From Lactobacillus sp. CBA3606 (GTDB lineage: Bacteria > Bacillota > Bacilli > Lactobacillales > Lactobacillaceae): a DNA stretch of 64,000 bases. Location of the stretch: contig NZ_CP027194.1 in assembly GCF_002970935.1 (NCBI RefSeq), positions 1,736,001-1,800,000 on the forward strand, in the 5' to 3' direction. The position numbers and the translations under genes are program-made. Below are positions 34,810 to 52,388 of the stretch, piece by piece. Position 1 is the first letter of the stretch. Each line of letters begins with the position of its first letter. Below the pieces are notes generated by a model. It ran no database searches. It was not told the origin of the DNA and was given only the letters and a program-made list of their open reading frames with translations.

Positions 34810-34893
34810 TGGAGTATTACTCCATAAAAATAAATAAAGCGCTTTACATTATCCAAAACAGCTGTTATATTTTATTTGGAGATAAAATCCAAA
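34810..34893 (+). promoter_or_regulatory. nanE-PTS promoter with RpiR and CcpA operator candidates
   Basis: TTTACA (34843-34848) and TATATT (34866-34871) are spaced by 17. AAAGCGCTTT (34836-34845), a cre-like core, covers the -35. TGGAGT-N3-ACTCCA (34810-34824) lies upstream and TTTGGA-N7-TCCAAA (34875-34893) just after the start point; both share TGGA/TCCA half sites and are good RpiR operator candidates. Confidence 0.6.
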
Positions 34894-34921
34894 AAGATTG
34901 TTTATGGAGGAATTACGGATA

Positions 34922-35611: not shown

Positions 35612-35631
35612 CTTTTTAGGAGGATTGAAAA

Positions 35632-37131
35632 ATGTTTAAACAATTTTCTAAGCTGGGTCAAGCTTTTATGCTGCCAATTGCTATTTTACCCGCAGCAGGA
35701 TTATTACTTGGATTAGGTGGGGCTCTAACGAATAAAAGTGCGTTGACGGCATACCCTTTCTTAGATGTCAGTTGGTTACAAACCATTCTAAAAGTAATGA
35801 ATTTTGCAGGAAATGCTGTTTTTGCTAATATTGCGCTAATCTTTACAGTTGGGATTGCAGTTGGTTTAGCTAAAGGGGATAAAGGGACGGCAGGGTTGTC
35901 TGGGGCGGTAGCGTATCTAGTGTATACCGCTACAATCAGTGGATTATTACAATTGTTTTCCGCCAAAGATGCTGCAATTGATACGGGTGTTTTAGGGTCC
36001 ATTGTCGTTGGTGGGGTAGTTGCCTATTTACATAACCGCTACCGTAAAATTGAATTACCACAATTTTTAGGTTTCTTTGGTGGATCAAGGTTCATTCCCA
36101 TTGTTTCTTCCTTCGCAGCAATCGTTTTAGGTATGATTTTTTACTTAATTTGGCCACCGATTCAGGGATGGTTAGTGGTTGCGGGGAAAGAAATTGCAAC
36201 CTTAGGTAGTATCGGAACTTTTCTCTATGGCTTCTTACTTCGTTTACTTGGTGCGGTTGGTCTGCATCATACTATCTATCCTATGTTTTGGTACACCTCT
36301 TTGGGCGGAACCGAAGTTGTAGCTGGTCATACGATTCAAGGGGCACAGAACATTTTCTTTGCTCAATTAGCTGACCCCAACCATACGGGATTGTTCACCT
36401 ATGGGACACGATTCTTTGCTGGTCGATTTGCAACAATGATGTTTGGCCTACCAGCTGCGGCACTAGCAATGTATCATGCCATTCCAAAACGTAATCGTAA
36501 ACAAAATAGTGGCTTGTATTTTAGTGGCGCTTTGACATCGTTTTTAACAGGTATTACTGAACCTTTAGAGTATACGTTTTTATTTGTTGCACCCTGGTTA
36601 TATGTTATTCATGCGTTCTTAGATGGCTGTTCTTTCTTTGTTGCTGATATTTTAAATATTCGAATTGGCAATTCATTTTCCGGTGGCTTGATTGATTATT
36701 TACTCTTTGGTGTGCTACAGGGTCAAGATAGGACGCATTGGATGTATGTTATTCCTTATGGGATTGCTTGGGCATTTATTTACTATTTTGTTTTTTCATT
36801 TTGTATCAAAAAATTTAAAGTTGCTATTCCAGGAATGGTAGATGTCGATAACACTAGTGTCGTAGAATCCAGCAGTAGCGATAGTGATTTAAATACGCAA
36901 TCGCAAATAATCATTGACGCATTGGGCGGTGCAACGAATATTGAATCAATTGAAGCTTGTGCGACGCGATTACGAATTGCGGTTAAAGATAGTGGCCTAG
37001 TTGATAAAACGCAGCTTAAATCATTAGGTGCAACTGCTGTTCTTGAAATGGGTGGCGGTATTCAAGCTGTTTTCGGTGGTAAAGCAGATTTGTATAGTCA
37101 AGAGATTAATCAGATTTTAGGTACTGATTAG
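35632..37131 (+). CDS. PTS EIICB of the glucose/N-acetylglucosamine family
   Basis: The 499-residue membrane permease has the EIIC domain (about 1-400, ten spans, GLHHTIYPMFW and the GITEPLEYTFLFVAP signature). A Ser-rich linker follows (about 410-425), then EIIB with the phosphorylation Cys in IEACATRLRI. The neighbouring nanE makes N-acetylmannosamine the most likely substrate. AGGAGG before the ATG. EIIA follows as a separate gene after 13 bases. Confidence 0.9.
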   Translation: MFKQFSKLGQAFMLPIAILPAAGLLLGLGGALTNKSALTAYPFLDVSWLQTILKVMNFAGNAVFANIALIFTVGIAVGLAKGDKGTAGLSGAVAYLVYTATISGLLQLFSAKDAAIDTGVLGSIVVGGVVAYLHNRYRKIELPQFLGFFGGSRFIPIVSSFAAIVLGMIFYLIWPPIQGWLVVAGKEIATLGSIGTFLYGFLLRLLGAVGLHHTIYPMFWYTSLGGTEVVAGHTIQGAQNIFFAQLADPNHTGLFTYGTRFFAGRFATMMFGLPAAALAMYHAIPKRNRKQNSGLYFSGALTSFLTGITEPLEYTFLFVAPWLYVIHAFLDGCSFFVADILNIRIGNSFSGGLIDYLLFGVLQGQDRTHWMYVIPYGIAWAFIYYFVFSFCIKKFKVAIPGMVDVDNTSVVESSSSDSDLNTQSQIIIDALGGATNIESIEACATRLRIAVKDSGLVDKTQLKSLGATAVLEMGGGIQAVFGGKADLYSQEINQILGTD

Positions 37132-37144
37132 GAGGAAAAATAAA

Positions 37145-37630
37145 ATGTTTAAATTTTTGAAGAAAAAAGTAGCGTTGAAGTTAGTGGCACCGGTTGATGG
37201 TCAAATAGTAGCGTTAGAAAATGTGAACGATCCTGTTTTTTCACAAAAGTTAATGGGAGAAGGGTTTGGTATTCAGCCAACCAGTGGTCAAGTGTATGCG
37301 CCGATTAGTGGTACGATTACTAGTGTGTTTAAGACTAAACATGCCATCGGTCTAACGACGCCGGAAGGATTAGAAATATTAATACACATTGGTTTGGATA
37401 CGGTTGAATTGAATGGTGTACCATTCAGCATCCAGGTTAAAAAAGATGATCAGGTTACTCCTAAGACCGTTTTAGCGGATGTCGATTTTGAGCAAATTAA
37501 AGCTGCTGGTAAAGAGACCGTTGTATTAACGTTGGTTACTAATTCTGCGACCCAGTTAGCTGAGTTAACGGCGATTAGCACGCAACCGATTAAACATGGG
37601 GCGGAAGTCACTAGTCTAACCCTTAAATAA
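37145..37630 (+). CDS. PTS EIIA of the glucose (Crr) family
   Basis: The 161-residue EIIA domain has APVDGQIVALENVNDPVFSQKLMGEGFGI at the start and HIGLDTVELNG with the phosphorylatable His. It receives phosphate from HPr and passes it to the EIIB Cys of the gene before. AGGAGG precedes the ATG. It is the last gene of the nanE operon, which lacks nagA and nagB, so those must be elsewhere. Confidence 0.92.
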   Translation: MFKFLKKKVALKLVAPVDGQIVALENVNDPVFSQKLMGEGFGIQPTSGQVYAPISGTITSVFKTKHAIGLTTPEGLEILIHIGLDTVELNGVPFSIQVKKDDQVTPKTVLADVDFEQIKAAGKETVVLTLVTNSATQLAELTAISTQPIKHGAEVTSLTLK

Positions 37631-37637
37631 AGTATCA

Positions 37638-37677
37638 AAAAGGTTGCTTGATCAGATTTTGATTAAGCAGTCTTTTA
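37638..37677 (+). terminator. Terminator of nanE-PTS operon
   Basis: An imperfect stem (TTGCTTgATCA against TGATtAAGCA) is followed by TCTTTT, directly after the EIIA gene. Confidence 0.65.
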
Positions 37678-37770
37678 AGTTAAAAATAAATAAAGTAATA
37701 AAAAGCCTAAGTTCATTAAGGCGAGTTAAAGAACTGGCTGGTTGCTGTCGTTTGAGTAGCATTTTAACGG

Positions 37771-38586
37771 TCAATCGGTTAATTTGAAGAAGTCCCGAAG
37801 ATAAACTGCCACGCCATCTTGCGTATTGGGCAATGTGACTGCCGTTGCGGCTTGTTGCACAATAGCTGGCGCGTTACCCATGGCGATACTGTGATCGGCA
37901 ACTTGAAACATACCCAAGTCATTCAAGCCATCACCAAAAACTAAAGTGTGCGCACGGTCAATGCCGGTTGCTTGTTGAATGGTGGTAATAGCAGTGGCTT
38001 TATCAACACCATGCGGGATTAATTCTAAATTATGCGGGTTAGAACTCGATAAATTTAGGGTGGTTGTCTGGCCTAGTTCAGTGCGAATTGCCGCCAACTG
38101 AGCAGGGTTTCCGTAGGCAATTGCATTGGTGATATACCCAGCAAGCTTGGGCAGATATTCAGGCCCAATCAACGGTAATGCATTTAAATCTGGCATTGTG
38201 ACGACGTTGGCGCGGGCAGCGTCAGCTTGATAAGGCGGTTCGTCACCCGTGTAGTATAAACGATTGGTTTCAAAGAAGAAGACTTTGCAATCGTGGCCTA
38301 AGACGGTCTGATAAATGGTTGTGAGCTGGTTGGCTGATAAATAGGCCGTCTGTAGCTGGTCGCCGAGTTCAAAAGTCGCACCGTTTGCGGCGATAATTTT
38401 AACTGGACCGCCAATTTGGGCCGCTGCTTGTCGAGCTAAGGGCAACATACGGCCGGTAGCAATGTAGAAGTGGTGTCCGCGCGCCATCAAGCGCTGGAGG
38501 GTAAGCTGGGTCGCCGTCGTCAGGCGGGTATGGTCAATCATAAGTGTCCCGTCGACGTCGGAAAAGATTAAATAAGGTGTCATCAT
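37771..38586 (-). CDS. Cof-type HAD hydrolase
   Basis: This 271-residue HAD-superfamily phosphatase of the Cof/SupH subgroup has motif I LIFSDVDGTL, a C2 cap domain (about 85-190), and motif IV FGDGLNDLGMFQVADHSIAMGNA. It dephosphorylates sugar phosphates or cofactors; the substrate is not predictable. ATG 38586 is placed eight bases after AAGGAG; the frame is open to GTG 38595. It is monocistronic and convergent with the PTS operon. Confidence 0.87.
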   Translation of the reverse strand: MMTPYLIFSDVDGTLMIDHTRLTTATQLTLQRLMARGHHFYIATGRMLPLARQAAAQIGGPVKIIAANGATFELGDQLQTAYLSANQLTTIYQTVLGHDCKVFFFETNRLYYTGDEPPYQADAARANVVTMPDLNALPLIGPEYLPKLAGYITNAIAYGNPAQLAAIRTELGQTTTLNLSSSNPHNLELIPHGVDKATAITTIQQATGIDRAHTLVFGDGLNDLGMFQVADHSIAMGNAPAIVQQAATAVTLPNTQDGVAVYLRDFFKLTD

Positions 38587-38788
38587 TAACGTCACTCCTT
38601 ATTAAACGATTATACTAGAAGTTAATCGCGGTTGGTGTAAAGGCCAATAAATATCATGATAAAAGCCTAAATTAATCGTAATTAAATGAAAGTAAGGGCT
38701 TTTTTTCAGTTCAAACTAGACAATTGATATCCAAGTTGTATAATGTACCTGTAAGCGTTAACAAAATCCGAATTTGGGGGCGTTAGTT

Positions 38789-40483
38789 ATGGTTAAAAGT
38801 AAAGCAATTATGATTGGTGCTGGGCTATCGAACATGGCTTCAGCAGTGTATTTGATTCAAGATGGTCATTGGGATGGCAAAGATATCACCTTTTACGGGG
38901 TTGATATGCATGGTGCCAATGATGGCGGGTCAACCGCAGACTTCACGAACGAATATTGGAACAAGAATCATCCCATGGAGAACACGACCGGGTATGTTGC
39001 TCGGGGCGGTCGGATGTTAAATTATCGGACCTATGTGGATTTAATGGAATTGTTAGACCGGATTCCATCAATTACGGAACCAGGCATGACAGCCGCAGAA
39101 GATACTCGCGACTTTGATGCAAAACACCGGACTTTTGATAAGGCACGGCTATTACAAGGTGGCAAGGGTATTATCAATGCCAGCAAGTTAGGCTTTAACA
39201 ACAAAGATCGGACCTTACTCACGAAGCTGATTTTGATGCCAGATGCTGAGGAAGAAAAACTCGACAATGTGACTATCGCAGAATACTTTGCGGATGATCC
39301 ACATATGTTCCAAACGAACTTCTGGTACATGTGGGAAACAACCTTTGCGTTCAGAACACAAAGTTCTGCACAAGAATTACGGCGTTATATGCATCAAATG
39401 ATTTATGAATTTACTCAAATTGAACATTTAGTTGGGGTTAATCGGACGCGTTACAACCAATTTGAAAGTATGATTGAACCATTAATTAAGTATTTACAAG
39501 CTCAAAATGTGACCTTTATTGACAACAAGATTGTTGAAGATTGGCAATTTAAAGATACTGCGATGCAAGATGAAATCACGGTGACAGGATTAGTTGTGAA
39601 AGATGCTAAAACCGGTGAGACTGAAGAAGTTGAAGTCGATGATGACACTGCAGTAATCTTTACCAATGGGTCAATTACCGATTCTGCAACGATGGGGGAT
39701 TACAATACGCCCGCACCTGAAAATATGGAATACGGGATTAGTGCCGCCCTCTGGAAGAAAGCCACGGAACGCTTCTATAACTTGGGTACGCCGGACAAAT
39801 TCTTTAATGATCGGAATGCAAGTGAATGGGTCAGCTTTACGTTAACGACCAAGGATCATGCTTTCTTAAATGAAATCGTGCGGATTACGACGCAAGAACC
39901 AGGGAATGCGTTGAACTCCTTCCTATCAACGACGCCAATTACACCTTTGAATCAAAAAGATATTAATATGTCGATTGTTATTCATCATCAGCCACACTTT
40001 ACTACCCAAAATCCAAATGAAACCGTACTCTGGGGTTACTTCCTTTATCCACGGCGACAAGGCGAATTTGTTCACAAGCCATACATTAAGATGACGGGTA
40101 AAGAAATGGCGCAAGAATTAATTGGTCAGCTTTCGAAAGTTGATCCTGGTCCTGGCAACATTAAGGATAAGGAAAAAGAATTATTAGATAGCATCATCAA
40201 CAATATTCCGGTTTACATGCCATATGCCTCTGCGTTGTTCAATAACCGGGCTAAGACTGATCGGCCAGAAGTTGTCCCACAACATTCAACCAACTTAGCC
40301 TTTACGGGTGAATTTGCGGAACAACCTTACCAAATGATTTTCACGGAACAAAGTGCAGTTCGTTCTGGTGAAATTGCAGCCTATCACTTTGCAGGGGTTC
40401 CAATGGATAACTTAGTTAAGACACCACGTTATGACAAGGATCCAAAGACCTTGTTGAAAGCGACTAAGAAAATGTTTGACTAA
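38789..40483 (+). CDS. ohyA: Oleate hydratase (myosin-cross-reactive antigen family)
   Basis: The 564-residue FAD protein adds water to the cis-9 double bond of free unsaturated fatty acids, giving 10-hydroxy acids. The FAD-binding GAGLSNMASAVYLIQDGHW lies near the N-terminus. NDGGSTADFTNEYW, RGGRMLNYRTYVDLMELLDRIPS and NNRAKTDRPEVVP are family hallmarks. GGGGG precedes ATG 38789; the upstream TTG at 38774 is not needed. It is the last core-like gene before the accessory island. Confidence 0.95.
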   Translation: MVKSKAIMIGAGLSNMASAVYLIQDGHWDGKDITFYGVDMHGANDGGSTADFTNEYWNKNHPMENTTGYVARGGRMLNYRTYVDLMELLDRIPSITEPGMTAAEDTRDFDAKHRTFDKARLLQGGKGIINASKLGFNNKDRTLLTKLILMPDAEEEKLDNVTIAEYFADDPHMFQTNFWYMWETTFAFRTQSSAQELRRYMHQMIYEFTQIEHLVGVNRTRYNQFESMIEPLIKYLQAQNVTFIDNKIVEDWQFKDTAMQDEITVTGLVVKDAKTGETEEVEVDDDTAVIFTNGSITDSATMGDYNTPAPENMEYGISAALWKKATERFYNLGTPDKFFNDRNASEWVSFTLTTKDHAFLNEIVRITTQEPGNALNSFLSTTPITPLNQKDINMSIVIHHQPHFTTQNPNETVLWGYFLYPRRQGEFVHKPYIKMTGKEMAQELIGQLSKVDPGPGNIKDKEKELLDSIINNIPVYMPYASALFNNRAKTDRPEVVPQHSTNLAFTGEFAEQPYQMIFTEQSAVRSGEIAAYHFAGVPMDNLVKTPRYDKDPKTLLKATKKMFD

Positions 40484-40612
40484 AATCAAAATTGGTTTTA
40501 AGAGATAAAGTGAACCCCCTGAGTTGGAGTAAATCCAAACTTGCTATGATCCCTTTATGGTTGTCAGATGAAATAATATAATTCATCTGACATTCCATGG
40601 AGGGATTTTTGT

Positions 40613-41303
40613 ATGCCAAGGTCTAGATATACACTAGCCGAAAAACTGGCTTTAATTACTGAGTTTCAGAGCTCCAGTCTTTCTATTACTGCATTTAGTA
40701 AGCAACATGGGTTGGATCATCACACCATTGGTCAATGGAAATTACGTCTTCAACGCGATGGTATCAATGGATTAATGGCAACCACTAAGAATCAGCATTA
40801 CAGTAAAGCGTTCAAGCAAATGATTATTCAAGCAAATGATTATTCAAGCATATTTGAATGGCGAGGGAACACTTCAAGAATTAACTAATAAATACCAAAT
40901 GCGCTCAACTTCACAGCTAAGAAACTGGCTAATCAAGTATAATAGGGACCAAACTGTGACGGCTTCGCCGTCTAGAAAGCAGGTCCCTAAAATGAGCCGT
41001 AAAACAACTTTTAATGAACGTGTAGAAATTGTGGAGTGGATTAATAAAGGTAATCATTCATACAGTGAAGCCACCAAGCATTTTAACGTCTCTTATCAAC
41101 AAGCTCGTTCTTGGGCCTTAAAGGCCCAAGCCAAAGGTTTTGAAGCCTTGGTTGATAACCGAGGGCATCGTAAACCTGAATCAGAACTAACGGATCTGGA
41201 TAAAGCCAACCTCCGAATTAGGCAATTAGAGTCACAAATTAAGGATCAGCAATTATTAGAGGCATTCATAAAAAAATATCAGGAACTTCAGCGCAAGGGG
41301 TGA
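40613..41303 (+). pseudogene. IS3-family orfA (HTH protein), broken by 16-bp duplication
   Basis: The N-terminal frame gives MPRSRYTLAEKLALITEF..., two HTH_28-type helices, then shifts. CAAATGATTATTCAAG at 40817-40832 is repeated directly at 40833-40848. Removing one 16-base copy restores one frame of about 225 codons running FKQMIIQAYLNGEGTLQELTN into the second half, which ends with a leucine-zipper-like stretch (LRIRQLESQIKDQQLLEAFI). The duplication is an obvious replication slip. Confidence 0.85.
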
Positions 41304-42194
41304 AACATCAACGTCGACTGGCTTACCACGCAATCAAGGAAGTTAGTCAAAACAATCATGGGACGATTACTAAGTTATTAGCAATACTTAAGGTTAGTCG
41401 TCAAGCCTATTACAAAGGGCTACATCGTAACGTAACGGATTGGGAGATTCGAGATAACTTCTTAACTGAACGGGTTCAATATTGGTATAACCAACATCAT
41501 CAAAGTATTGGCAGTACCAAAATATTATCTAATCTCAGAAAAGACCTGGCCGTCACCGAACAGGTGACGTTAAAGCAAGTTAAGCGGATTATGATCAAGC
41601 TAGGAATTCGTTGCCAGGTTCGTCAGAAAAAGCATTCACGAATCCAAACAACAGGAGCAATACTTACAAGATAATTTTTTAAATCAGTGTTTTAGCGTTA
41701 ACCAACCAAACCTGGTTTGGTTAGCTGATTCAACGGAATTGACCTATGGTGTTAACGGTCAGTATAAAGTGCGTTTGAGTGGCGTACTGGATCTTTACGG
41801 TCGCCATCTAATTGCCCATAAATTAAGTGAAACTGAAACTTCGAAGGCAGAAGTTCAGGTTTTTCAACGGGCCTTTAATTTTGCGGGTGACGTCCACCCT
41901 GTAGTGCATACTGACCGAGGTTCGGCATACACATCAGGAACATTCAATAACTTTTTGGCGCAACATGAAGTCACCCGTAGTATGTCACGACCAGGAACGC
42001 CGTATGATAACGCACCAATGGAACGTTGGTGGAACGAGTTCAAATTGCGCTGGATTGATCGACACGCTAAACCAGTTACCTATAAAGAATTAGTGGCCTT
42101 GGTCGAAGAAGGCATCAACTATTTTAATCAACTAGATCGTTCACCAGCAAGAAACGACCGCACCCCAGCGGAATACTGGAATGAGGCCGTTTAA
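41300..42194 (+). pseudogene. IS3-family orfB (DDE transposase), frameshifted
   Basis: The first part (41300-41674, 124 codons) holds the HTH_21 region (HQSIGSTKILSNL). The second part (about 41660-42194) holds the rve integrase core, with catalytic Asp in WLADSTELTY, Asp in HTDRGSAY and Glu in NAPMERWWNEFK. The two are in different frames. A one-base gain near 41658 (ACAACAGGAGCAA where ACAACAGAGCAA would read TTEQYLQDN) explains it. Confidence 0.83.
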
Positions 42195-42308
42195 GCAAAG
42201 CAAAACAAAACTTATATTATTTCAAATGACAACTTGACAGGGACTAGTACAAACTTAGGGGCTTTATTGCTCTAACTGTTTTTCAGATAATTCTCTGCAA
42301 ACCGAGTC

Positions 42309-42336
42309 TGACCATTAGGATATACCCTAGTGGTCA
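42309..42336. repeat. 28-bp imperfect palindrome upstream of resolvase
   Basis: TGACCA...TGGTCA forms a dyad of 28 bases with 24 matching positions, centred on TATA. It sits 70 bases before the resolvase gene. It may be a recombination (res) subsite or a terminator-like element of mobile origin. Confidence 0.45.
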
Positions 42337-42404
42337 TTTTTAGCTTAGTGCTATACTGGTGATTATAAATGTTCATTAGAGCTGTCCAAAAGGGAACGCT
42401 GAAA

Positions 42405-42989
42405 ATGGCTAAAATCGGTTACGCGAGGGTGAGTTCCAAAGATCAAAATCTGGATCGGCAGTTAATGGCTTTAAAGGACGTTGATCAACTATTTACGGAT
42501 AAATTAAGTGGGGTCAACACCCAGCGCCCGGCGCTGAAAAAGTTGTTGGCCTATATTCGCGAGGGTGACGTTGTCCTAGTCACCGAATTAGATTGCTTAG
42601 GTAGGAACAACCAGGATTTAACCAAGATCATGAACACTATTCAAACTAAGGGTGCCACCTTGGATGTCCTAAATCTACCTTCCATGACCGGAATTGCGGA
42701 TCCGAACTTGCGCCAATTGATGACCAACCTCATTATTGAATTGTATAAGTACCAAGCCGAGAGTGAACGTAAACGGATCATCGAACGTCAGCAACAAGGG
42801 ATTGCCTTGGCCAAACAGCAGGATAAGTATCGCGGACGGAAGCCTCAATATGCCGAAGATGATTCGTGTTTGCAACATGCTTTTAAGCTTTATAAAGCAG
42901 GCATGAGTGATGTGGATGTTGCCAGGAATACAGGTATTAAACGGACTACCTTTATTCGATATCGAAAGAAATTCGATGTGAAAAGATGA
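42405..42989 (+). CDS. Serine recombinase (resolvase/invertase)
   Basis: This 194-residue small serine recombinase has catalytic Ser in YARVSSKDQNLDRQL, Arg residues in the ELDCLGRNNQDLTKI region, the long E helix (about 105-135) and a C-terminal HTH (GMSDVDVARNTGIKRTTFIRYRKKF). Plasmids and transposons of lactobacilli use such enzymes for dimer resolution or inversion. ATG 42405 with AAGGGAA is chosen over the longer frame. It borders the CBASS-like pair and supports a mobile origin of this island. Confidence 0.88.
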   Translation: MAKIGYARVSSKDQNLDRQLMALKDVDQLFTDKLSGVNTQRPALKKLLAYIREGDVVLVTELDCLGRNNQDLTKIMNTIQTKGATLDVLNLPSMTGIADPNLRQLMTNLIIELYKYQAESERKRIIERQQQGIALAKQQDKYRGRKPQYAEDDSCLQHAFKLYKAGMSDVDVARNTGIKRTTFIRYRKKFDVKR

Positions 42990-43088
42990 CGTTTACATGA
43001 GATAATCATGTCAAAAAAGATTAGTAAGTAGAAAATTCGCTAGAAAAACACAAGCTGAAGACGATGATAAAAAAAGGGGTATGTGTTT

Positions 43089-44072
43089 ATGACTGTAGAT
43101 TCTTGGTTTAGCAATTATGTTTCAGAAAACATAAATATAGATAGTAAAAAAAGCACAGGTGCAAGAAATAGTAGAAATTGGTTAACTTCAAATATTAAGG
43201 ATCTTAGTCAAAGAAACGAGGAAAACCTTGAATTATACTCGGGCTCAGAATTTGCATTAAAAATGGGATCATTTGCTCGAAAGACACAGATTAGACCTCT
43301 TGACGATGTTGACCAAATGATTATCTTTTCGGCAAAGGGGAGCACCGCTAATTTAGATACATCTCAATGGAATCAGGTGTTTGTAAATGTTCCAGATAGC
43401 GCTCCTGAATTAAAGAAAATGGATGGAGAAAATGGGCTTAGTTCTATAAAGGTCTTGAATTATCTTAAACAGCTATTGAATGGAATATCGCAATATCAGT
43501 CGGCAGATATTAAAAGGAGTCAGCAGGCACTCAGACTGGAATTGTCAAGTTACGACTGGGGATTTGATATAGTCCCTGGATTTAGAACTGTTACTGATGG
43601 TCAGGGATATTACTACTACATCATTCCAAATGGGGAAGGTGCCTGGGAAAAAACAAATCCACGAATAGATCGTCAAAACTTAACTGAATATCAAAAAGAA
43701 GCCTCAATTGATCTAAGGGAAGTAGTGCGTATTCTCAAATATTGGCGAAAGGCTCATAATGCAGTATGCAAGCTTAATTCTTATGCACTAGAGACCATGG
43801 TTCTTGACTTTATAGACACTAATCCAATATACTCCAACTCCCGAGAGTTTGTAGAAAGTTTCCTTCTTTATCTTTCAAAAGCAGTTTTCGGTTCTGTTCA
43901 AGACAGAAAAGGATTTCAAGGAGATTTGAATTTTTTAGATTTTACAGCTCGTTTAGAAATTCAGAAAAAAGCAATATATTACCATGACGTGATAAAAGAG
44001 GCTAATAAATACGAAACTGAATTTATGAGTGAGCAAGCAATAAAATCTTGGACTAAGTTTTTTGGGAACTGA
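43089..44072 (+). CDS. CBASS CD-NTase (SMODS-family cyclic oligonucleotide synthase)
   Basis: The 327-residue nucleotidyltransferase of the cGAS/DncV-like superfamily shows Gly60-Ser61 in KMGSFARKTQIRPL, the metal-binding pair Asp73 and Asp75 in LDDVDQM, and a third carboxylate Asp160 in YDWGFDIVPGF. The helical LREVVRILKYWRKAHN segment is typical of the SMODS C-terminal domain. In the known family such enzymes make cyclic di- or trinucleotides on phage infection. ATG 43089 is used, ten bases after AAGGGG. It lies four bases before a four-span membrane protein. The DNA is AT-richer than the core genes. No E1/E2/JAB or HORMA/TRIP13 genes follow, which fits a minimal type I system. Confidence 0.85.
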   Translation: MTVDSWFSNYVSENINIDSKKSTGARNSRNWLTSNIKDLSQRNEENLELYSGSEFALKMGSFARKTQIRPLDDVDQMIIFSAKGSTANLDTSQWNQVFVNVPDSAPELKKMDGENGLSSIKVLNYLKQLLNGISQYQSADIKRSQQALRLELSSYDWGFDIVPGFRTVTDGQGYYYYIIPNGEGAWEKTNPRIDRQNLTEYQKEASIDLREVVRILKYWRKAHNAVCKLNSYALETMVLDFIDTNPIYSNSREFVESFLLYLSKAVFGSVQDRKGFQGDLNFLDFTARLEIQKKAIYYHDVIKEANKYETEFMSEQAIKSWTKFFGN

Positions 44073-44075
44073 TAG

Positions 44076-44954
44076 ATGAAAATGAAAATTGACATAGCTA
44101 AGCAAAACACACCCAAAGCAATTCGGTTATTGTCTGCACAAAGGAATTTATATTCTCAAGCAAAATTTATAGAGCTTTTTAGCCTGTTGTCAACATTAGT
44201 TCCGATTGTCCTTGTACTTTTTATTGGAAATGGGATTTGCATTCAATTCATTACAACAATCGCCCCCGTGATAGCTCTTTTACTAACTCAGTGGTCAAAA
44301 AACGAAATAAAAAGCGCCGCAAGAATTCAAGAAAAATTTGACACTATTATATTCGGGCTATATTGGAATGAAATATTAGTCGGGAGAGAACCAAGTCCAG
44401 AGATTATTAATAAGTTTTCAAAAAATCAGGATCAAAGTATTTTAAAAAATTGGTACACTAATCCAGGTTTAGATTCAGATGAATTAAATATAATCATTTG
44501 CCAAAGGAATAATGTGGTATGGAATATACAGCTCCATAAAATCTGTAAAAATATAATAGTATTTTTGCTTTTGCTATTTCTAGGATTTATTACTGCTGGT
44601 ATCTTTTTTAAAGATTACATGTGGGTACATGCTATGGATACTGCTATCGTTACTATAATTCCAATTGTTATCAAACTGGTAAGTTATTGGATCAGTTTTA
44701 AAGCTTTGCTAGATGAAGAAACCCAACTAATTAACAAGATAGATGATATCATTCACTCTATAGATGAAAATAGATATTCAATTTCTGTTGAAGACTTAAG
44801 ATCTATTCAAGATTTTATATTTATTAATATTAGATCTGCAACTGTTTTAGTTCCAAATTGGATTTACTTTGTTACCAAGAAAAACCGTGAAGAAGCAATG
44901 GAATCCTCTACAAAAAGTATTGCTGACAATTTAAAAAAGCATTCGGAACATTAA
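44076..44954 (+). CDS. SMODS-associated four-span membrane effector (S-4TM type)
   Basis: The 292-residue protein has two hydrophobic pairs: FSLLSTLVPIVLVLFI with FITTIAPVIALLLTQW (about 35-80), and IIVFLLLLFLGFITAGIFF with IVTIIPIVIKLVSYWISF (about 160-215). A cytosolic segment of about 80 residues lies between them and a charged C-terminal helix region follows. This layout and its place right behind a CD-NTase match the S-4TM effector family predicted to form pores on binding the cyclic nucleotide. The intergenic gap is three bases, so translation is coupled. Pore formation here is inferred from family and context. Confidence 0.78.
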   Translation: MKMKIDIAKQNTPKAIRLLSAQRNLYSQAKFIELFSLLSTLVPIVLVLFIGNGICIQFITTIAPVIALLLTQWSKNEIKSAARIQEKFDTIIFGLYWNEILVGREPSPEIINKFSKNQDQSILKNWYTNPGLDSDELNIIICQRNNVVWNIQLHKICKNIIVFLLLLFLGFITAGIFFKDYMWVHAMDTAIVTIIPIVIKLVSYWISFKALLDEETQLINKIDDIIHSIDENRYSISVEDLRSIQDFIFINIRSATVLVPNWIYFVTKKNREEAMESSTKSIADNLKKHSEH

Positions 44955-44967
44955 TCTTATGGTGTAA

Positions 44968-45507
44968 GATCATGTTCTGGATCTTGCTCAATTAAAAGAA
45001 CCTAAGAACATAGATACTAATAGATACAATATAGATACTCAAAAGTTGGACTTTCCCACAACTTATTTCTCACCAGCAGAAATTGAAAAACAAAACAGAG
45101 ACCTGGTCACTCATGCTGATAAATTCCTAACTGATGAAGACAGTGGACTACCAGCTTTCTTAGAACTCGAAGCGGTTCAATTACTTAGCTTTTGGTGCCG
45201 AACCCCGCAACAGATGCGCCGGTTTATCGGTATTATTCTCAATGCCAAGTACGAGGTCGAAAAGGAACGTCAAAACATTGGGGTCTATATTCCACTAGAC
45301 GATGAAGAGCTAAAGCCCTTGATGACCAGGACTTTAAGACGCTACTTTAACGCCCTTAGAAGTAATGAGAAACATATCAAAGACGTTGAGAATTACCTAT
45401 ACGGCACCATTCAAAATCTATTTGGGGTTTGGTGGAATAAACATGTTGCCAGAGATTATGCCGCCAAACACCCCGAAAATGCTAATAACGATCATGCTTG
45501 GAATTGA
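44968..45507 (+). pseudogene. Plasmid replication initiator (RepA-type), C-terminal fragment
   Basis: The frame is open from just after a stop at 44965-44967 and encodes the C-terminal part of a lactobacillus plasmid RepA-like initiator: AQLKEPKNIDTNRYNIDTQKL, then SPAEIEKQNRDLVTHADKFL, WCRTPQQMRRFIGIILNAK, ending HAWN. The N-terminal HTH part is absent and no good start or ribosome site exists. The piece begins only 13 bases after the effector gene, marking a plasmid-derived junction. The family is recalled from similar plasmid proteins, not searched. Confidence 0.7.
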
Positions 45508-45650
45508 AGGCCTGTATAAGCTTATATCTAGATCTTTAATCGTGTGAGGACCATTTAATTGGAAACAGCTTAAAACCGTTTAGAACAAAAAATAGATAGC
45601 TTAAACGGCACATGCTGGATAAGTAGCTGAACATGAAAGGAGCTTTTAAA

Positions 45651-45848
45651 ATGACTAAACCAATCAAAAAAGTCGGAAAGATAGAGCAATTGTTGGCTGA
45701 CCCGTGGGCAGTCGATATTCAAGAAATTTGGGAGCAAGCAGCACATAATCCTGATCCTGATAAACGCAAACTCTTTGACGCTTTACACACTTACCTCTTA
45801 GACAAACGTCAAGAACAAATCATCAATGAAAAACACTTTGTGGTCTAA
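45651..45848 (+). CDS. Small protein upstream of zeta toxin, probable antitoxin
   Basis: This 65-residue protein starts MTKPIKKVGKIEQLLADPWAVDIQEIWEQAAHNPDPDKRKLFDAL and ends EQIINEKHFVV. It does not look like the classical epsilon antitoxin in sequence, but is of similar size and helical character, and the toxin ATG lies one base after its stop. AAAGGAG is nine bases before ATG 45651. Antitoxin function is inferred from position alone. Confidence 0.65.
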   Translation: MTKPIKKVGKIEQLLADPWAVDIQEIWEQAAHNPDPDKRKLFDALHTYLLDKRQEQIINEKHFVV

Positions 45849-45849
45849 T

Positions 45850-46536
45850 ATGAGTGAACAAAAAAGATATATCATTGTGGCTGGAATAAACGGCGCTGGG
45901 AAAAGTACTTTGTATCGTACACGGCCAGAATTATTTGCGCATTCTAAACGATTGAACGCTGATGAAATTCTGCAAGCAATGGGTGGTGATTGGCGAAAAA
46001 ATCGTGATAATTTTAAAGCCATGCGCGAAGAAATTAAACAGTTACATGCTGCTTTAAATCAGCGACAGAGTATTCACGTTGAAACAACCTTATCTGGACA
46101 AGGTAAGGCTCAATTGAATCTAATTGATCGTGCTCACAAAAATGGTTTTGAGGTCACGCTTTTATATGTGGCTTTAAAAAGCGAAAAAATAGCAATTAAT
46201 CGTGTTCATGAGCGGGTCAAAAAAGGTGGGCATGGTGTACCAGATGAAGTTGTAAAAAAACGTTATAGTCAATCAAATCATAATTTGCCAGCAGTTGCCT
46301 TCAAAGTTGATAACGTAGTGATCTATGATAATAGCCAAAAATTTGTGTCAGTTTACAGAAGAGAGCATGACCAGGTGATTAAAAATAAATTGAGTGAATA
46401 TCCTTGGATTAATTCTAAAATCACTTTTGAAGCAGCCATTCAAAAACAACTAAATGGCTTTGTTAAAGATAATCCAGATTTAAAAATTGAAAATCCAATG
46501 AATGATCCAGAAAATAAAGACGAGTCCGGGACATAA
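45850..46536 (+). CDS. Zeta-type toxin (UDP-N-acetylglucosamine kinase family)
   Basis: This 228-residue P-loop kinase has Walker A GINGAGKST at 12-20, RLNADEI (catalytic Asp of the zeta fold) and VETTLSGQGKAQLN, plus KKRYSQSNHNLPAV typical of the zeta/PezT C-terminal part. Zeta toxins phosphorylate cell-wall precursors and kill or arrest the cell. ATG 45850 is coupled to the small gene before it. The last residues (DESGT) lie within the left end of an IS1182-type element, so the natural C-terminus may have been replaced by the insertion. Confidence 0.82.
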   Translation: MSEQKRYIIVAGINGAGKSTLYRTRPELFAHSKRLNADEILQAMGGDWRKNRDNFKAMREEIKQLHAALNQRQSIHVETTLSGQGKAQLNLIDRAHKNGFEVTLLYVALKSEKIAINRVHERVKKGGHGVPDEVVKKRYSQSNHNLPAVAFKVDNVVIYDNSQKFVSVYRREHDQVIKNKLSEYPWINSKITFEAAIQKQLNGFVKDNPDLKIENPMNDPENKDESGT

Positions 46537-48197
46537 CTCGGATTCCATAAGAAAATGAGGTAGTAAATTCTCGAATTTTGAGAATTTACTACCTCATTTT
46601 TTCTTTGCCCCTCCGGGTCTGCAAATAGCATGGCTAATTTTGCCATATTATTTGCCATTAATGCGATACCAACTTCATTCCATGTACCCATTAAACCTCG
46701 CACCGAGAAACGGTTGAACGACAAATGAGCTTTCAAGTTGGCAAAAATTGGTTCAACATCAATTTTACGTTGCGCGTAAATTTGTTGGCCAACTTGACTT
46801 GAAAGCTGTTCTTTTGCTTTGTTTTTAAAATATTCCCAATTTGAGTTAATACTGATTTGGCGCTTGTTACCCTTGGGGGTAGTGGCTAATTTTTGCCGAA
46901 TAGGATCTTCAAAATATTTAACAGCTCGATACACTTTGAAGTTTCGCTCAGCACCGTATTTATCGTGACGAGTGCTGTAATTAGAAAAGACAAATTGAAT
47001 GCCATCCAAATCAGTAAAACAATCGTTCTTTTCATCATAATTCCAATTAGCAACTTTCCGTTTGTCTTTATGATAAGAACGTTTTTGTTCTTTTTCATAC
47101 ATGCCATATGGAATCAAAAAATTAGTTTTAAGCTCATCAGTAATATATTGATAGTTCATTTCACTACCATAACCGGCATCAGCAACAATATACCGGGCAG
47201 TATATTGGTTGGTATCAAAGATAGTCGATAAAAATGGCTGTAGCGTCCGAGTATCGGTAGGGTTATGGAATAAATCGAAGAATAATGTAAATTGATTTTG
47301 ACTTGCGACCTGAAGATTATATCCTGGTTTTAGTTGACCGTTCTTCATTGGATCCTCTTTCATACGCATGAAAGTTGCCGCAGGATCAGTCTTAGAGAAA
47401 CTATTGCGTTTACCAAAAGTCCTATTGGCAAACTCGTATTTTTGTTTGCGTGGAATCAGATCGTTGTGTAGCAAATGTGAGTAATGTTTTAGTTTACGAC
47501 GACGGCGCTTATTTTGAGAGCCACCGGGTTTAATCTTTTCGTCGGCAATAATTGTATTCAAATGAGTGATTTCATCATCCACTTGATTGGAGATTACATC
47601 TAAACTAGCACTATCAAGAGGCCGATCGGTCTCTTGATTGACGGCCAAATCAACTTTAGCTTGAATTAAATCCTGATAAAGTTGGCTAGTTTTAACATTA
47701 AGCTTAGGCTCATTTTTCTCAACAGACTTTCGCCATACAAAAGTATATTTATTAGCGTTAGCAAGCAGTTTAGTACCATCAATAAATAATGCCGAGTCAT
47801 CAATCAGCCCCAATGCTTCTAACCGTTGGCGGAAAGTTAAGAAAAGCCGTTTGATCAGTGTTTTAGTTTGCGGTTTAACCCGAAAACGATTGATAGTTCG
47901 ATAACTAGGTGTTGTTTGGATATTGCCTAATAGCCAACGCATCGGTAAGTTTTCTTCCGCCATTTCAGCGATTTTTCGACCAGAAAAAACTTTACGAGAA
48001 TATCCAAATAATAACATTTTAAGTAATAATCTAGCAGGATACTCAGGACGACCGGTCCGAGAGGACTCGGCGTCCAAATCAGCCATTGAAATTGATTCAA
48101 CTAAAGTATTGATTGCCCAAACAATGTGATTACTTTTGGGTTGCCAGTCCAATTCTAGTTTCAAAATAGTTTGATTATTGATATAATTCATTTGCAT
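46440..48197 (-). CDS. IS1182-family transposase, reading out of its element
   Basis: The 585-residue transposase opens MQMNYINNQTILKLELDW with the IS1182 N-terminal domain (SRTGRPEYPARLLLKMLLFGYSRKVFSGRKIAE), has DDE-type core residues in FIDGTKL and VADAGYGSEMNYQYI, and FANLKAHLSFNRFSVRG near the C-terminus. GAGGTG precedes ATG 48197. No stop lies inside the element: the frame passes the terminal hairpin and inverted repeat and ends inside the zeta gene, adding about 25 foreign residues. It may still be active. Confidence 0.85.
   Translation of the reverse strand: MQMNYINNQTILKLELDWQPKSNHIVWAINTLVESISMADLDAESSRTGRPEYPARLLLKMLLFGYSRKVFSGRKIAEMAEENLPMRWLLGNIQTTPSYRTINRFRVKPQTKTLIKRLFLTFRQRLEALGLIDDSALFIDGTKLLANANKYTFVWRKSVEKNEPKLNVKTSQLYQDLIQAKVDLAVNQETDRPLDSASLDVISNQVDDEITHLNTIIADEKIKPGGSQNKRRRRKLKHYSHLLHNDLIPRKQKYEFANRTFGKRNSFSKTDPAATFMRMKEDPMKNGQLKPGYNLQVASQNQFTLFFDLFHNPTDTRTLQPFLSTIFDTNQYTARYIVADAGYGSEMNYQYITDELKTNFLIPYGMYEKEQKRSYHKDKRKVANWNYDEKNDCFTDLDGIQFVFSNYSTRHDKYGAERNFKVYRAVKYFEDPIRQKLATTPKGNKRQISINSNWEYFKNKAKEQLSSQVGQQIYAQRKIDVEPIFANLKAHLSFNRFSVRGLMGTWNEVGIALMANNMAKLAMLFADPEGQRKNEVVNSQNSRIYYLIFLWNPSYVPDSSLFSGSFIGFSIFKSGLSLTKPFSCF
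46552..46600. terminator. Left subterminal hairpin of IS1182-type element
   Basis: A 21-base-pair perfect stem (46552-46572 with 46580-46600) around a seven-base loop, with A and T runs on the sides, can stop transcription entering or leaving the element. Confidence 0.75.
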
Positions 48198-48275
48198 AGA
48201 AAGCACCTCTATTTTCTTTTTTGTTTGGTCGCAATAAGAATACCAGAGAACTTTCTCTGCGTACATAAAGAATGA

Positions 48276-48323
48276 AAAAATAGTTCTGAGAAATCAAAAA
48301 ACGATTTCTCAGAACTATTTTTT
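48276..48323. terminator. Right subterminal hairpin of IS1182-type element
   Basis: A stem of about 20 base pairs (TAGTTCTGAGAAATC with its complement) lies between A-run and T-run, unrelated in sequence to the left hairpin but in the mirror position. Confidence 0.75.
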
Positions 48324-48402
48324 AGAATCTAGGACTTTTGTCCCAAACTCGTCTTTTAGTTATGCCTTTAGGCCCAGTTGAGCGCGCTAAAGCGTGCGAA
48401 AC

Positions 48403-49166
48403 AAAAAACCACCCGCTATGCGGGTGGATGGCAAAATGGTTAAACCAAAACGCCCCCATCAGATTTAGAATGTAGGTGTCAGAGCCAAACATTCAAAATC
48501 GAAAGGGGACGTCAGAAATGGCGAATAAGCTAAATAGTCTTGCGCATACCAAATGGCTGTGCAAGTACCATATTGTATTCACTCCAAAGTATAGGAGAAA
48601 AATAATTTATAATCAATATCGACGTGATTTGCAAGAGGATATTCGATTGTTGTGCCAATATAAAGGCGTAAAAATTTTGGAAGGCCATATGATGCTTGAA
48701 CATGTGCATTTATTGGTAAGTATCCCACCGAAGCTGAGTGTATCAAGTTTCGTGGGGTATTTGAAAGGTAAATCGGCATTGATGATGTTTGATCAGCATG
48801 CAAATTTAAAATATAAATTTGGAAATCGACATTTCTGGTCAGTTGGTTATTATGTCAGCACGGTTGGATTGAATGAAGCAACCATCGAGAAGTATATCCG
48901 TGATCAGGAGAAAAATGATCAAGCGGAAGATTGCTTGAGTGTTCGGGAATATGAGGACCCTTTTATGGGTCAAGGTAAGTAATACCAACACCACTTAAAG
49001 CGGTGGCAAAAGTGACAAGAGCAAGTTTGGCTTTGATACACAAAAGCCAGAGCTTTGAGACGCTGGCAAGGACATAGGGCTTATAGCCCTGGAGCAAACT
49101 ACCCGTTTTACGGGTAGTTATGATTTGTCGGTGTTTGAGTCTAAAAAAGCCCACTATGCGGGCTAG
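48403..49166 (+). mobile_element. IS200-like element
   Basis: A single Y1-type transposase gene is flanked by hairpins: CCACCCGC/GCGGGTGG at about 48409-48427 on the left, and AACTACCCG/CGGGTAGTT (about 49097-49119) and AGCCC/GGGCT (about 49147-49164) on the right. There is no inverted terminal repeat, as expected for IS200/IS605-group elements. Exact ends cannot be fixed by eye. Confidence 0.65.
48518..48982 (+). CDS. tnpA: IS200/IS605-family Y1 transposase TnpA
   Basis: This 154-residue HUH transposase has the HUH motif in LEHVHLLVSIPPK and the nucleophile Tyr in the GYYVSTVGLN helix. LCKYHIVFTPKYRRKI at the start is the Y1 family signature. It cuts single-stranded DNA at hairpins. AAAGGGGA precedes ATG 48518. 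No tnpB is next to it, so it is an IS200-type element. Confidence 0.9.
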   Translation: MANKLNSLAHTKWLCKYHIVFTPKYRRKIIYNQYRRDLQEDIRLLCQYKGVKILEGHMMLEHVHLLVSIPPKLSVSSFVGYLKGKSALMMFDQHANLKYKFGNRHFWSVGYYVSTVGLNEATIEKYIRDQEKNDQAEDCLSVREYEDPFMGQGK

Positions 49167-49229
49167 AAAAACTAAGCGGTGATCCTTGGTCTAATTATTT
49201 GAATAATTCAGTGTGACGCATTGTGTTAG

Positions 49230-50108
49230 TCATGACGGTGCTAGCGCTTCTTGTACTGCATGCAAAAAAGCTTGGGCTGCTGTAGTAAGGGAGAGGTCTT
49301 TGGACCAGACTAAATTAACGGCCACAGGTGGTATGTCGGCTAGCGGAACGAAAGCTAGTGCAGTACTGGCGGTGTTGTAGATACCTTCAATGGCGATGGC
49401 GGCACCTATCCCAGCCTCAACAAACTTAGTAGCGTTGTAGAGTAGATTATAGGTTGCTATCACATTTAACTGAGTGATATTTTGCCCAAACCAGTCGGCA
49501 ATTTCTGTGTTAACCCCGCGTTGATAGGACATCATCAAGGGAACTGTGAATAAATCAGTCGGTACAATTTGGGCGTGTTTGGCCAGTGTTGAAGTCTTGG
49601 GTAAGAGTAATCCCCAATGACTGTGACTTGGCAAATTAATGAAATTAAGCCGCTCTTTGTCGACATGACCTACTAGGAGACCAAAATCCAGTAGGCCTGC
49701 AGCTAATTGCCGTTTCACGTCGTCTGCATTCAGGCTGGATAGCTGGAAGGTCACTTGTGGATGCTGATTGGTCAGTGTCTTAGCCGCTTGTGCGATGGTG
49801 GTAATGCTGGGGACTTCGCCACCGCCAATGGAGACGTTGCCACTGAGTGTGGTTGTTTTTTGAATATTATAGATAGTCTTGTCCGCAAGTGCCACAATTT
49901 GACGAGCCTGTTGGGCGAAATAAGTGCCACTGGCAGTTAAGGCAATTGTGCGGCTGCCACGTTCGAATAAGGTCACGTCTAGTTCATCCTCTAAATCGTG
50001 CAGTTGTCGTGAGATGGTGGGTTGAGAGATGTGGAGTTTGGTGGCGGCCCGGCTGATATTTTGTTCTTGGATGACGGTGAGAAAATAACGTAGAACTCGA
50101 ATTTCCAT
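49230..50108 (-). CDS. LysR-family transcriptional regulator
   Basis: This 292-residue regulator has the N-terminal HTH (MEIRVLRYFLTVIQEQNISRAATKLHISQPTISRQLHDLEDEL) and a periplasmic-binding-like effector domain (about 90-290). AGGAGG lies six bases before ATG 50108; the longer frame has no site. It is divergent from the SDR gene and probably controls that operon. It is the first core-like gene after the island. Confidence 0.88.
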   Translation of the reverse strand: MEIRVLRYFLTVIQEQNISRAATKLHISQPTISRQLHDLEDELDVTLFERGSRTIALTASGTYFAQQARQIVALADKTIYNIQKTTTLSGNVSIGGGEVPSITTIAQAAKTLTNQHPQVTFQLSSLNADDVKRQLAAGLLDFGLLVGHVDKERLNFINLPSHSHWGLLLPKTSTLAKHAQIVPTDLFTVPLMMSYQRGVNTEIADWFGQNITQLNVIATYNLLYNATKFVEAGIGAAIAIEGIYNTASTALAFVPLADIPPVAVNLVWSKDLSLTTAAQAFLHAVQEALAPS

Positions 50109-50221
50109 GAGAAACCTCCTATGCTTTTTAAGCATGATATATTAATCAATTTAGGTATTAGACATACTATAGTTTACCAGTTATGCTAGTCTCCACAAAG
50201 TCATTGAAGGAGATTAAAAAA

Positions 50222-50965
50222 ATGAGTGTTGAAAATAAGGTTGTAGTTGTTACTGGAGCATCTAGTGGCATTGGTGCGGCCACTGTTAAATTATTAGTTA
50301 ATCAAGGCGCCAAAGTGGTTTTTGGTGCGCGACGTGCTGATAAATTGGCAATGGTTGCGGCTGATTTACCTAAGGATCAAATTGCTTATCAGGTGACGGA
50401 TGTGGCAGAACTCGTATCTGTTCAGGAATTAATTCATTTGGCTGTTAGCACATTTGGCAAGATTGATGCCCTCTTTAACAATGCTGGAGTGATGCCCACG
50501 GCTAATTTAGCTGAGAATCATCATGATGAGTGGCAACGGATGTTAGATATTAATGTGATGGGCGTATTAAATGGGATATCAGCGGTACTTCCTGTCATGC
50601 ATCAACAAGGATTCGGCCACATCTTAGCAACGGATTCGGTTGCAGGTCACTTGGTTTATCCAGGATCTGCGGTGTATTGTGGAACGAAGTTTGCTGTACG
50701 AGCGATTATGGAAGGCTTACGACAAGAAGAAATTCAGAATCGGATTCGCACGACGATTGTGTCACCAGGAGCAGTTGATACGGAACTATACCGGTCTATC
50801 AGTGATTCTAAGACGGCTAAAGACTTAGTGACCGCTTGGCATGCAACATCAGATAGTGCCCTGCAGCCCGAAGATCTTGCGGCTGCTGTCGTTTATGCTA
50901 TTGGTGCACCTAGCCGTGTAGCAGTAAACGAAGTCTTGATCCGTCCCGCTGGTCAGGCGATGTAA
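50222..50965 (+). CDS. Short-chain dehydrogenase/reductase
   Basis: The 247-residue classical SDR has the cofactor motif TGASSGIG, NNAGV at the usual place, catalytic Ser in LATDSVAG, and Tyr/Lys in YCGTK. The FGARRADK Arg residues suggest NADPH preference. Substrate is unknown. AAGGAG precedes ATG 50222. An acetyltransferase gene follows 16 bases later. Confidence 0.88.
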   Translation: MSVENKVVVVTGASSGIGAATVKLLVNQGAKVVFGARRADKLAMVAADLPKDQIAYQVTDVAELVSVQELIHLAVSTFGKIDALFNNAGVMPTANLAENHHDEWQRMLDINVMGVLNGISAVLPVMHQQGFGHILATDSVAGHLVYPGSAVYCGTKFAVRAIMEGLRQEEIQNRIRTTIVSPGAVDTELYRSISDSKTAKDLVTAWHATSDSALQPEDLAAAVVYAIGAPSRVAVNEVLIRPAGQAM

Positions 50966-50981
50966 GAAAGTGAGTAAATAA

Positions 50982-51575
50982 ATGCAGAAGACAACGATTC
51001 TTGACCGTGCTCTGGCGGGTGAACGACTCGTGTTTACGGATCCGGAATTTGCGATTGTGGAGCAAAAAGTTGTCCACACAGCTCGGCTTTTACAGATGTT
51101 TAATCAGACTACGCAAACCGGAGCAGAACGCCGACAATTACTCAGTGATATTTTTGGGACAACTGTGCCAATTTCAACGGACATTAAGGCACCGCTCCAT
51201 AGCGATTTTGGCGGTCATATCTTTGTTGGAGAAAATGTCTTTATTAATCAAGATGTGATATTAACTGATCTTGGCGGTATTTATTTAGGGGATGGTGTCT
51301 TGATTGGACCACGGTCAACGTTGATTACAGTGAACCATGTGGAAGCTCCTAAACATCGGCGTGATCTTTTGCCGCAAGCAATCCATATTGAAGCGGGGGC
51401 CTGGTTAGGTGCTGGTGTAACGGTTCTTCCCGGTGTTACAATCGGAGAAAATACCATTATTGGTGCTGGTGCAGTGGTGACTAAGGATATCCCCGCCAAT
51501 GTGGTCGCAGTGGGAACACCTGCCAAAATACTGCGACATGTTTTGGCGGAGGTAGACGATGAATCGGCAATATAA
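50982..51575 (+). CDS. Hexapeptide-repeat O-acetyltransferase (maltose/galactoside type)
   Basis: This 197-residue left-handed beta-helix acetyltransferase of the LacA/Maa group has LLSDIFGTTVP, HSDFGGHIFVGENVFINQDVILTDLGGI, catalytic His in LITVNH, and the hexapeptide ladder VTVLPGVTIGENTIIGAGAVVTKDIPANVVAVGTPAKI. The acceptor is not known. It overlaps the next gene by 17 bases, so the two are coupled. Confidence 0.88.
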   Translation: MQKTTILDRALAGERLVFTDPEFAIVEQKVVHTARLLQMFNQTTQTGAERRQLLSDIFGTTVPISTDIKAPLHSDFGGHIFVGENVFINQDVILTDLGGIYLGDGVLIGPRSTLITVNHVEAPKHRRDLLPQAIHIEAGAWLGAGVTVLPGVTIGENTIIGAGAVVTKDIPANVVAVGTPAKILRHVLAEVDDESAI

Positions 51576-52083
51576 AGTTGCGGGTAAGATACTTTTCGTC
51601 GTTTTAGTTAGTGTGCTAGTTATTGTGAGTGCCTGGTTTTGGCAGACGCATCGCCAATCTAGCCAACAGCCGTCATTTCAGAGGACAGCATCGCAATCAG
51701 TAGTGGGGACAAACAATCGGCGGATAATTGTGACTATTGGACACAAACAGCTTACTGCTCGTTTAAATAAAACGGTACCGGCCCAGCAGTTATGGCAGCA
51801 ATTGCCGATGACGGTTAGCTTTACTGATTTTGGGAGTGGTTTTGTAGAAAAAATTGCGCCACTACCGCAATCACTACGAACAACAGGTACGCCAGTAGGT
51901 GCGAATCCACATCCCGTTGATATTGCTTATTGGTCGCCACAACCCCGGTTGGTCTTCTACGGGGGGAATGCGGGATACTATGAAGGCATTCATATCATTG
52001 GTCATTTTGAACAGCGAAAAAAGGCGCAACGATTACTGCAACGACACATGGGTCGGATAAAAATACAAATTACCCGGGATTAA
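51559..52083 (+). CDS. Membrane-anchored cyclophilin-like-fold protein
   Basis: The 174-residue protein has an N-terminal membrane anchor (ILFVVLVSVLVIVSAWFW, about 11-28) and an extracellular domain that resembles the Cyclophilin_like family (RRIIVTIGHKQLTARLNKTVPAQQLWQQLPMTVSFTDFGSGFVEKI, then PQPRLVFYGGNAGYYEGIHIIGHF). Similar domains often sit next to flavin reductases and SDRs; the function is not known. A terminator overlaps its stop. Confidence 0.72.
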   Translation: MNRQYKVAGKILFVVLVSVLVIVSAWFWQTHRQSSQQPSFQRTASQSVVGTNNRRIIVTIGHKQLTARLNKTVPAQQLWQQLPMTVSFTDFGSGFVEKIAPLPQSLRTTGTPVGANPHPVDIAYWSPQPRLVFYGGNAGYYEGIHIIGHFEQRKKAQRLLQRHMGRIKIQITRD

Positions 52084-52119
52084 ATGGACGGAGCAGTGTT
52101 TATTTCACCGTCCGTTTAA
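52082..52119 (+). terminator. Terminator of SDR-acetyltransferase operon
   Basis: AAATGGACGG (52082-52091) pairs with CCGTCCGTTT (52108-52117), one G-T pair, then TTAAT. Confidence 0.75.
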
Positions 52120-52388
52120 TAAATGAAAATCGTATCCGTTTTCAATACTAGTGCTACTAAGTTTTTTTGAAGATTAATAAAGTCGCTCAATAGCGTTCGA
52201 TTTAGTTATTATTAGACTATGAATGTGAACAGATAAAATAAATGTGTTTTGAAAATGAATTGTCAGCAAATCTGAATGGATGCAGCCATGGTAACCGTCA
52301 GTATTAATCATAATTAGGCTTATCAGCACGGATTTTTAGCGAGGTATGCTATGCTAGAAAAAGACTTTTTATGGGGAGTGGAATTGAT

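Follow-up and report, generated by a model that had tools for sequence, protein, structure and literature searches.

Two adjacent genes in the chromosome of Lactobacillus sp. CBA3606, one for a predicted nucleotidyltransferase and one for a small membrane protein, raise the question of whether they form a complete antiphage system and how they came to be there. An earlier note, made from the sequence, had read them as a minimal type I CBASS in a mobile island. We examined them within a window of 64,000 nucleotides (positions 1,736,001 to 1,800,000 of NZ_CP027194.1), which is part of a 2.45-Mb contig; the island is chromosomal. The pair is very probably a type I CBASS with an S-4TM effector, in which a phage-cued cyclase would produce a cyclic oligonucleotide that leads to membrane breach and cell death. 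The features of the region are collected in Table 1.

Table 1. Features of the pair and its surroundings (window coordinates)
Feature	Position	Strand	Evidence
Acquired island holding the pair, 11,790 bp	40507..52296	.	missing from nearest same-genus genome G019 (L050)
Transposase ORFs, IS3-like by eye	40550-42243		between 32-base inverted ends (81% complementary)
Serine recombinase gene and upstream flank (ORF 42369-42989)	42312..42989	+	Pfam Resolvase 6.1e-31; homology blocks
CD-NTase (CBASS oligonucleotide cyclase), 327 aa	43089..44072	+	Pfam SMODS 1.4e-13; PADLOC Cyclase PDLC00802 6.6e-108
S-4TM effector, 292 aa, two pairs of hydrophobic helices	44076..44954	+	Pfam S_4TM 8.2e-53; PADLOC 4TM Effector PDLC00725 3.4e-48
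RepA C-terminal remnant (plasmid replication initiator), N-terminal part missing	44995..45507	+	Pfam Bac_RepA_C 3.4e-33
71-aa ORF overlapping zeta-toxin-like kinase	45633-46536		Pfam Zeta_toxin 3.9e-13 (kinase)

A cyclase followed by a predicted four-helix membrane protein

The profile searches that the earlier note had proposed for the two families were both positive (Table 1). Pfam SMODS matched the cyclase with 51.9 bits (gathering cut-off 26.5) and S_4TM matched the effector with 180.1 bits (cut-off 26.9). Two NCBIfam profiles also hit the cyclase, CBASS_cyclase_b with 92.3 bits and CBASS_cyclase_a with 59.5 bits, both below the curated cut-off of 200, and an NCBIfam profile search with the effector gave no match. 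The cyclase start at ATG 43089 has AGGGG upstream with a nine-base spacer, while an alternative GTG at 43083 would leave a spacer of just three bases. As noted earlier, the effector begins three bases behind the cyclase, its ATG at 44076 following the stop at 44070-44072.

Cyclase residues, numbered from ATG 43089, were compared across 22 of the 25 loci that carry this cyclase type, leaving out the broken copies L005, L026 and L038. The GS motif and three catalytic acidic residues of a CD-NTase were all present, in the places that had been claimed for them: G60, S61, D73 and D75 were conserved in all 20 aligned cyclases with letters at these positions (two others are cut off before them), and D160 in 22/22. 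D272, K274 and N281 were likewise invariant (22/22) and Q277 nearly so (20/22). Position 59 is M, F or Y and position 62 is F or Y.

Structure prediction, another check proposed earlier, gave the cyclase a nucleotidyltransferase palm fold. The AF2 model found P. aeruginosa CdnD and CdnC of E. coli MS115-1 as its top Foldseek matches; cGAS ranked level with them by VIA-align Z. The model is of fair quality (mean pLDDT 74, pTM 0.59), with values below 50 at residues 60-71, the GS loop. By profile, the nearest solved cyclases were again CdnD (strain ATCC27853; best PDB match, 2.5e-22) and CdnC, which are ∼18-19% and 14-18% identical to the CBA3606 enzyme in the Foldseek alignments. The PDB titles name HORMA as a partner of CdnD, and HORMA and Trip13 as partners of CdnC, whereas no such gene lies beside the cyclase here.

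The two pairs of hydrophobic helices described for the effector agree with its hydropathy profile, in which hydrophobic stretches are centred at residues 36-65 and 156-175/190-204 with a marginal one at 256-257, and with an all-helical AF2 model containing four long helices (mean pLDDT 85.5). Four transmembrane helices are therefore predicted. Profile and fold searches of solved structures found no convincing relative, so pore formation is predicted from the family name and hydropathy. Our literature search, which covered few subscription journals, found no functional study of any S-4TM effector; PF18159 appears in a machine-learning study of Salmonella (PMC12440251), which is not a functional study.

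The absence of ancillary genes was also borne out, since the next coding sequences after the pair are the RepA remnant, the small ORF and the zeta-like kinase. With the recombinase on the other side, the neighbours recognised by Pfam and PADLOC include no HORMA/TRIP13, Cap2/Cap3 or other ancillary gene. Both families are already catalogued in Pfam and PADLOC, and the kind of system is known: type I CBASS with an S-4TM effector (PDLC00802 and PDLC00725) has the same families in the same adjacency and no ancillary gene. Nothing essential distinguishes the CBA3606 copy from these known systems, other than its position in a chromosomal plasmid remnant. Panoptes, which has a Cas10-like minimal polymerase as its cyclase and a 2TM beta effector, was considered and rejected: the cyclase had only SMODS matches in Pfam (E up to 1) and there was no Cas10 among the best 50 fold matches. 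The two-gene arrangement is a layout described for type I CBASS (PMC10419184), and together with the family matches and the cyclase fold it supports the minimal type I reading. Cap15 systems, in which CdnE is paired with a 2TM beta-barrel effector, share the two-gene layout and a membrane effector (PMC10442399) but differ in cyclase clade and effector architecture. Type I CBASS with pore-forming effectors has also been described in Klebsiella, found with PADLOC (PMC11973324).

Lid residues and the nucleotide product

In alignments to P. aeruginosa CdnD, T189 and D194 of the cyclase take the lid 1 and lid 2 positions, and this Thr/Asp pair is invariant in all 22 aligned cyclases. The lid 1 threonine is common to both enzymes, whereas CdnD has a histidine at lid 2; the cyclase also has MGS where CdnD and CdnC have TGS or SGS. 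According to PMC13424991, the lid 2 residue of clade C and D enzymes tracks the product, Gln being linked to cAAG and His to cAAA, and the acceptor base is related to the residue that precedes GS. The clade C/D combinations given there are Thr at lid 1, His or Gln at lid 2, and S, T or Q before GS. Thr189 fits this scheme, but Asp194 and Met59 do not. Because Asp194 does not conform to the clade C/D rules, published lid rules do not predict the product. CdnD and CdnC are described as cA3 producers (PMC13424991), and our guess, from the lid 1 threonine and the clade C/D neighbours, is that the product contains adenine. A third lid residue (cf. PMC10442399) might be N281 or Q277, but the model has pLDDT below 50 at residues 275-278. 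We tentatively raise the possibility, which we hold to be well short of likely, that the cyclase represents an S-4TM-linked subfamily of CD-NTases marked by an unvarying Thr/Asp lid pair and, ahead of GS, by a bulky hydrophobic residue. The product of such an enzyme would lie outside the cAAA/cAAG clade C/D rule and would be sensed by a four-helix membrane effector of uncharacterised structure.

Gene pairing, spread and the plasmid remnant

Among the 25 loci with this cyclase type, 24 could be assessed for a neighbour (the L030 sequence stops after the cyclase). In 23 of them S_4TM is the adjacent gene, the exception being the broken cyclase fragment at L005, and the effector comes first in two of the 23 (L011 and L032). 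Thirteen of 397 Lactobacillaceae genomes had a cyclase match at E <= 0.001, eight of them at E < 1e-80. S_4TM exceeded its cut-off in nine of the 397, namely these eight and G015, a co-occurrence with a hypergeometric probability of 6e-16 when relatedness is ignored. Within the genus of the window, only CBA3606 itself had the cyclase (1/21 genomes), and a class-wide sample of 398 genomes, including its own, contained three with a match at E <= 1e-20. Distances between cyclases correlated with those between effectors (Mantel r 0.43, p 0.005) for 11 pairs taken from 16 aligned loci, with L004, L008, L009, L012 and L025 left out. The alignments (A1-A5) had 11, 10, 11, 10 and 12 rows and left out L041, which is on the same contig as L032, and the broken L033 effector.

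A strict one-to-one link between S-4TM and this cyclase type was rejected because S_4TM genes also lie beside other cyclases at L039, L040 and L059; the pairing is thus tight from the cyclase side and non-exclusive from the effector side. On the IMG/VR contigs L039 and L040, S_4TM directly precedes a ∼480-aa frame with a weak cyclase-profile match (∼1e-6), and from these loci S-4TM effectors appear not to be restricted to a single type of cyclase. L059 (G015:C10, 3-2322) is the sole other S_4TM over the cut-off among the 21 genomes of the genus and is a CBASS with an E2 gene: S_4TM stands behind a different cyclase, cut off on its 5′ side, and behind an E2-like ancillary gene carrying a SEC-C motif. 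The weaker cyclase loci L020-L024 (E 1e-4 to 1e-8), which were not counted as this cyclase type, had no S_4TM within their 1.5-kb flanks.

Close copies of the pair occur in four other genera, with cyclases 90-96% and effectors 77-92% identical to those of CBA3606. They are carried by Lactobacillus sp. UCMA15818 (L008, 562-kb contig), Periweissella beninensis (L009, 18-kb contig with RepA), Paucilactobacillus hokkaidonensis plasmid pLOOC260-2 (L004) and G287 (L025, 26-kb contig with RepA); three of the four are on plasmids or plasmid-like contigs. The similarity of the cyclases across these genera points to recent horizontal spread. The pLOOC260-2 pair (LOOC260_RS11740/11745; proteins 91% and 78% identical) has the same order and spacing, but lies on a 41-kb conjugative plasmid and is followed by an AAA ATPase gene, whereas the CBA3606 pair is chromosomal. 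A more distant variant on an E. coli plasmid (L007) was present in 18 of 5,426 complete E. coli genomes.

In nine of ten pairwise comparisons, dN/dS ranged from 0.20 to 0.45 in the cyclase and from 0.23 to 0.29 in the effector; the tenth, between the near-identical L004 and L025, gave 0.13 and 1.01. Judged by these ratios, both genes are under purifying selection. One or both genes look broken in four of the 25 loci (L005, L026, L033 and L038). In L026 (G236, 9312-11105), L033 and L038 the reading frame of the cyclase or effector is split or contains a stop, so the system is apparently decaying in some carriers. L005, on Companilactobacillus futsaii plasmid NZ_CP064861.1 (3248-6488), has a frame-shifted cyclase fragment and no effector; a second CBASS-type cyclase, seemingly intact (PADLOC Cyclase 6.7e-89) and accompanied by a 192-aa partner, precedes the fragment by 1.8 kb.

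The claim that the pair sits in a mobile island held in comparison with G019 alone, which was chosen as the nearest same-genus genome by a flanking gene (38774-40483, 94%). G019 matches 31282-40506 and 52297-62960, two segments that are separated by 23 bases in that genome, and because its flanks adjoin in this way the intervening segment is extra in CBA3606. The G+C content is 33.1% for the pair, 39.6% for the island and 41.6% for the left flank. The recombinase upstream accompanies the pair in L009, also in L025 (0.8 kb away), and the broken cyclase in L005; in the homology blocks, none was seen near the L004 pair and only pieces near L008.

Downstream, position 44995 aligns inside the complete RepA proteins of L009 (378 aa) and L025 (381 aa), which are encoded ∼3 kb after their CBASS pairs. 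This jump into mid-RepA at 44994/44995 corresponds to a loss of 3.05 kb relative to L025 and 2.89 kb relative to L009. In L025, a ParA-like ORF and others (by eye) lie between the pair and repA, and in L009 the intervening ParA-like ORFs are on the other strand. Most likely a RepA-type plasmid brought the pair into the chromosome and later lost its partition-type genes and the N-terminal part of RepA. With RepA truncated, the source plasmid could no longer replicate by this protein. A weak PADLOC E1-E2 match to the RepA piece (E 0.0027, 14 bits) was taken as chance because of the RepA match in the same piece. The 71-aa ORF and zeta-like kinase are perhaps the plasmid's old toxin–antitoxin module; a zeta gene is also annotated beside RepA on NZ_CP050495.1. 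Beyond the kinase, the island contains a DDE transposase and other genes.

A self-contained mobile unit was rejected, as repeats inside 42200-45200 were short and chance-like. The homology shared with the close copies ends on the left at 42312 or 42925 and on the right at 44994/44995 (L004, L009, L025) or 44943 (L008), edges that we read as putative recombination boundaries between plasmids. A stretch of 48 bases from the 3′ end of the recombinase (42925-42972) matches twice in L025 (12114-12773 and 13560 on), around a 0.8-kb insert upstream of the pair, which suggests an exchange there.

Proposed function and alternatives

Our reading is based on intact genes, their families, the modelled cyclase fold, catalytic residues, tight pairing, purifying selection and associated mobile elements; activation, product, ligand binding, membrane damage, including the depolarisation expected by the earlier note, and phage defence we infer from the families. 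The cyclase would rest inactive until a phage-derived cue switches it on, and would then build a cyclic oligonucleotide from nucleoside triphosphates, ATP probably among them. The four-helix effector would bind this signal through its conserved cytoplasmic region, assemble and breach the cell membrane. The effector thus probably kills the infected cell, which would die before phage release. The membrane effectors Cap13-16 of CBASS are described as oligomerising and damaging the membrane (PMC10419184, PMC12642688), and according to PMC12642688 their conformational changes are not known.

Because the genes travel with plasmids, they might mainly target rival plasmids or conjugative elements, or serve as a plasmid-keeping module, rather than act against phages. 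Indeed, the cyclase has matches at E <= 1e-5, counting distant cyclases, in 951 of 72,556 plasmid records (926 over at least 80% of the query) against one of 50,697 phage records, and the carriers of close copies include a conjugative plasmid and RepA-bearing contigs. We nevertheless consider such a role unlikely: CBASS members are described as anti-phage (PMC10419184), the cyclase is also found on nine IMG/VR viral contigs, so viral carriage is not rare, and both genes are intact in a chromosome where the plasmid's own functions are gone. The same remnant might instead hold a silent passenger that no longer works in CBA3606. The truncated RepA, the loss of the genes before it, the flanking transposase genes and the four broken loci of 25 fit this, as do promoter-like sites at chance level (9 found, 9.8 expected) and a terminator search at the pair that found none. 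It too is improbable in our estimate, given that both frames are intact with catalytic and lid residues kept, that the 100 bases upstream are recognisably similar (by eye) in the four other genera, and that dN/dS is well below 1 in nine of the ten comparisons.

The unpredictable product leaves room for a cyclase that makes a housekeeping-like dinucleotide, e.g. c-di-AMP, in a pair that regulates osmotic or envelope physiology. This we regard as very unlikely, since the nearest solved cyclases by sequence are described as making cA3 and the patchy spread, in eight of 397 family genomes and three of 398 class genomes at the thresholds above, is unsuited to such a role. The reading as a type I CBASS with an S-4TM effector, directed against phages, adds a clean, minimal and plasmid-shuttled system to the lactic acid bacteria. 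Fermentations with these organisms can fail through phage infection, which is a problem in practice. With just two genes, the pair is a handy system in which to establish the cyclic nucleotide signal as well as the structure and function of the S-4TM effector.
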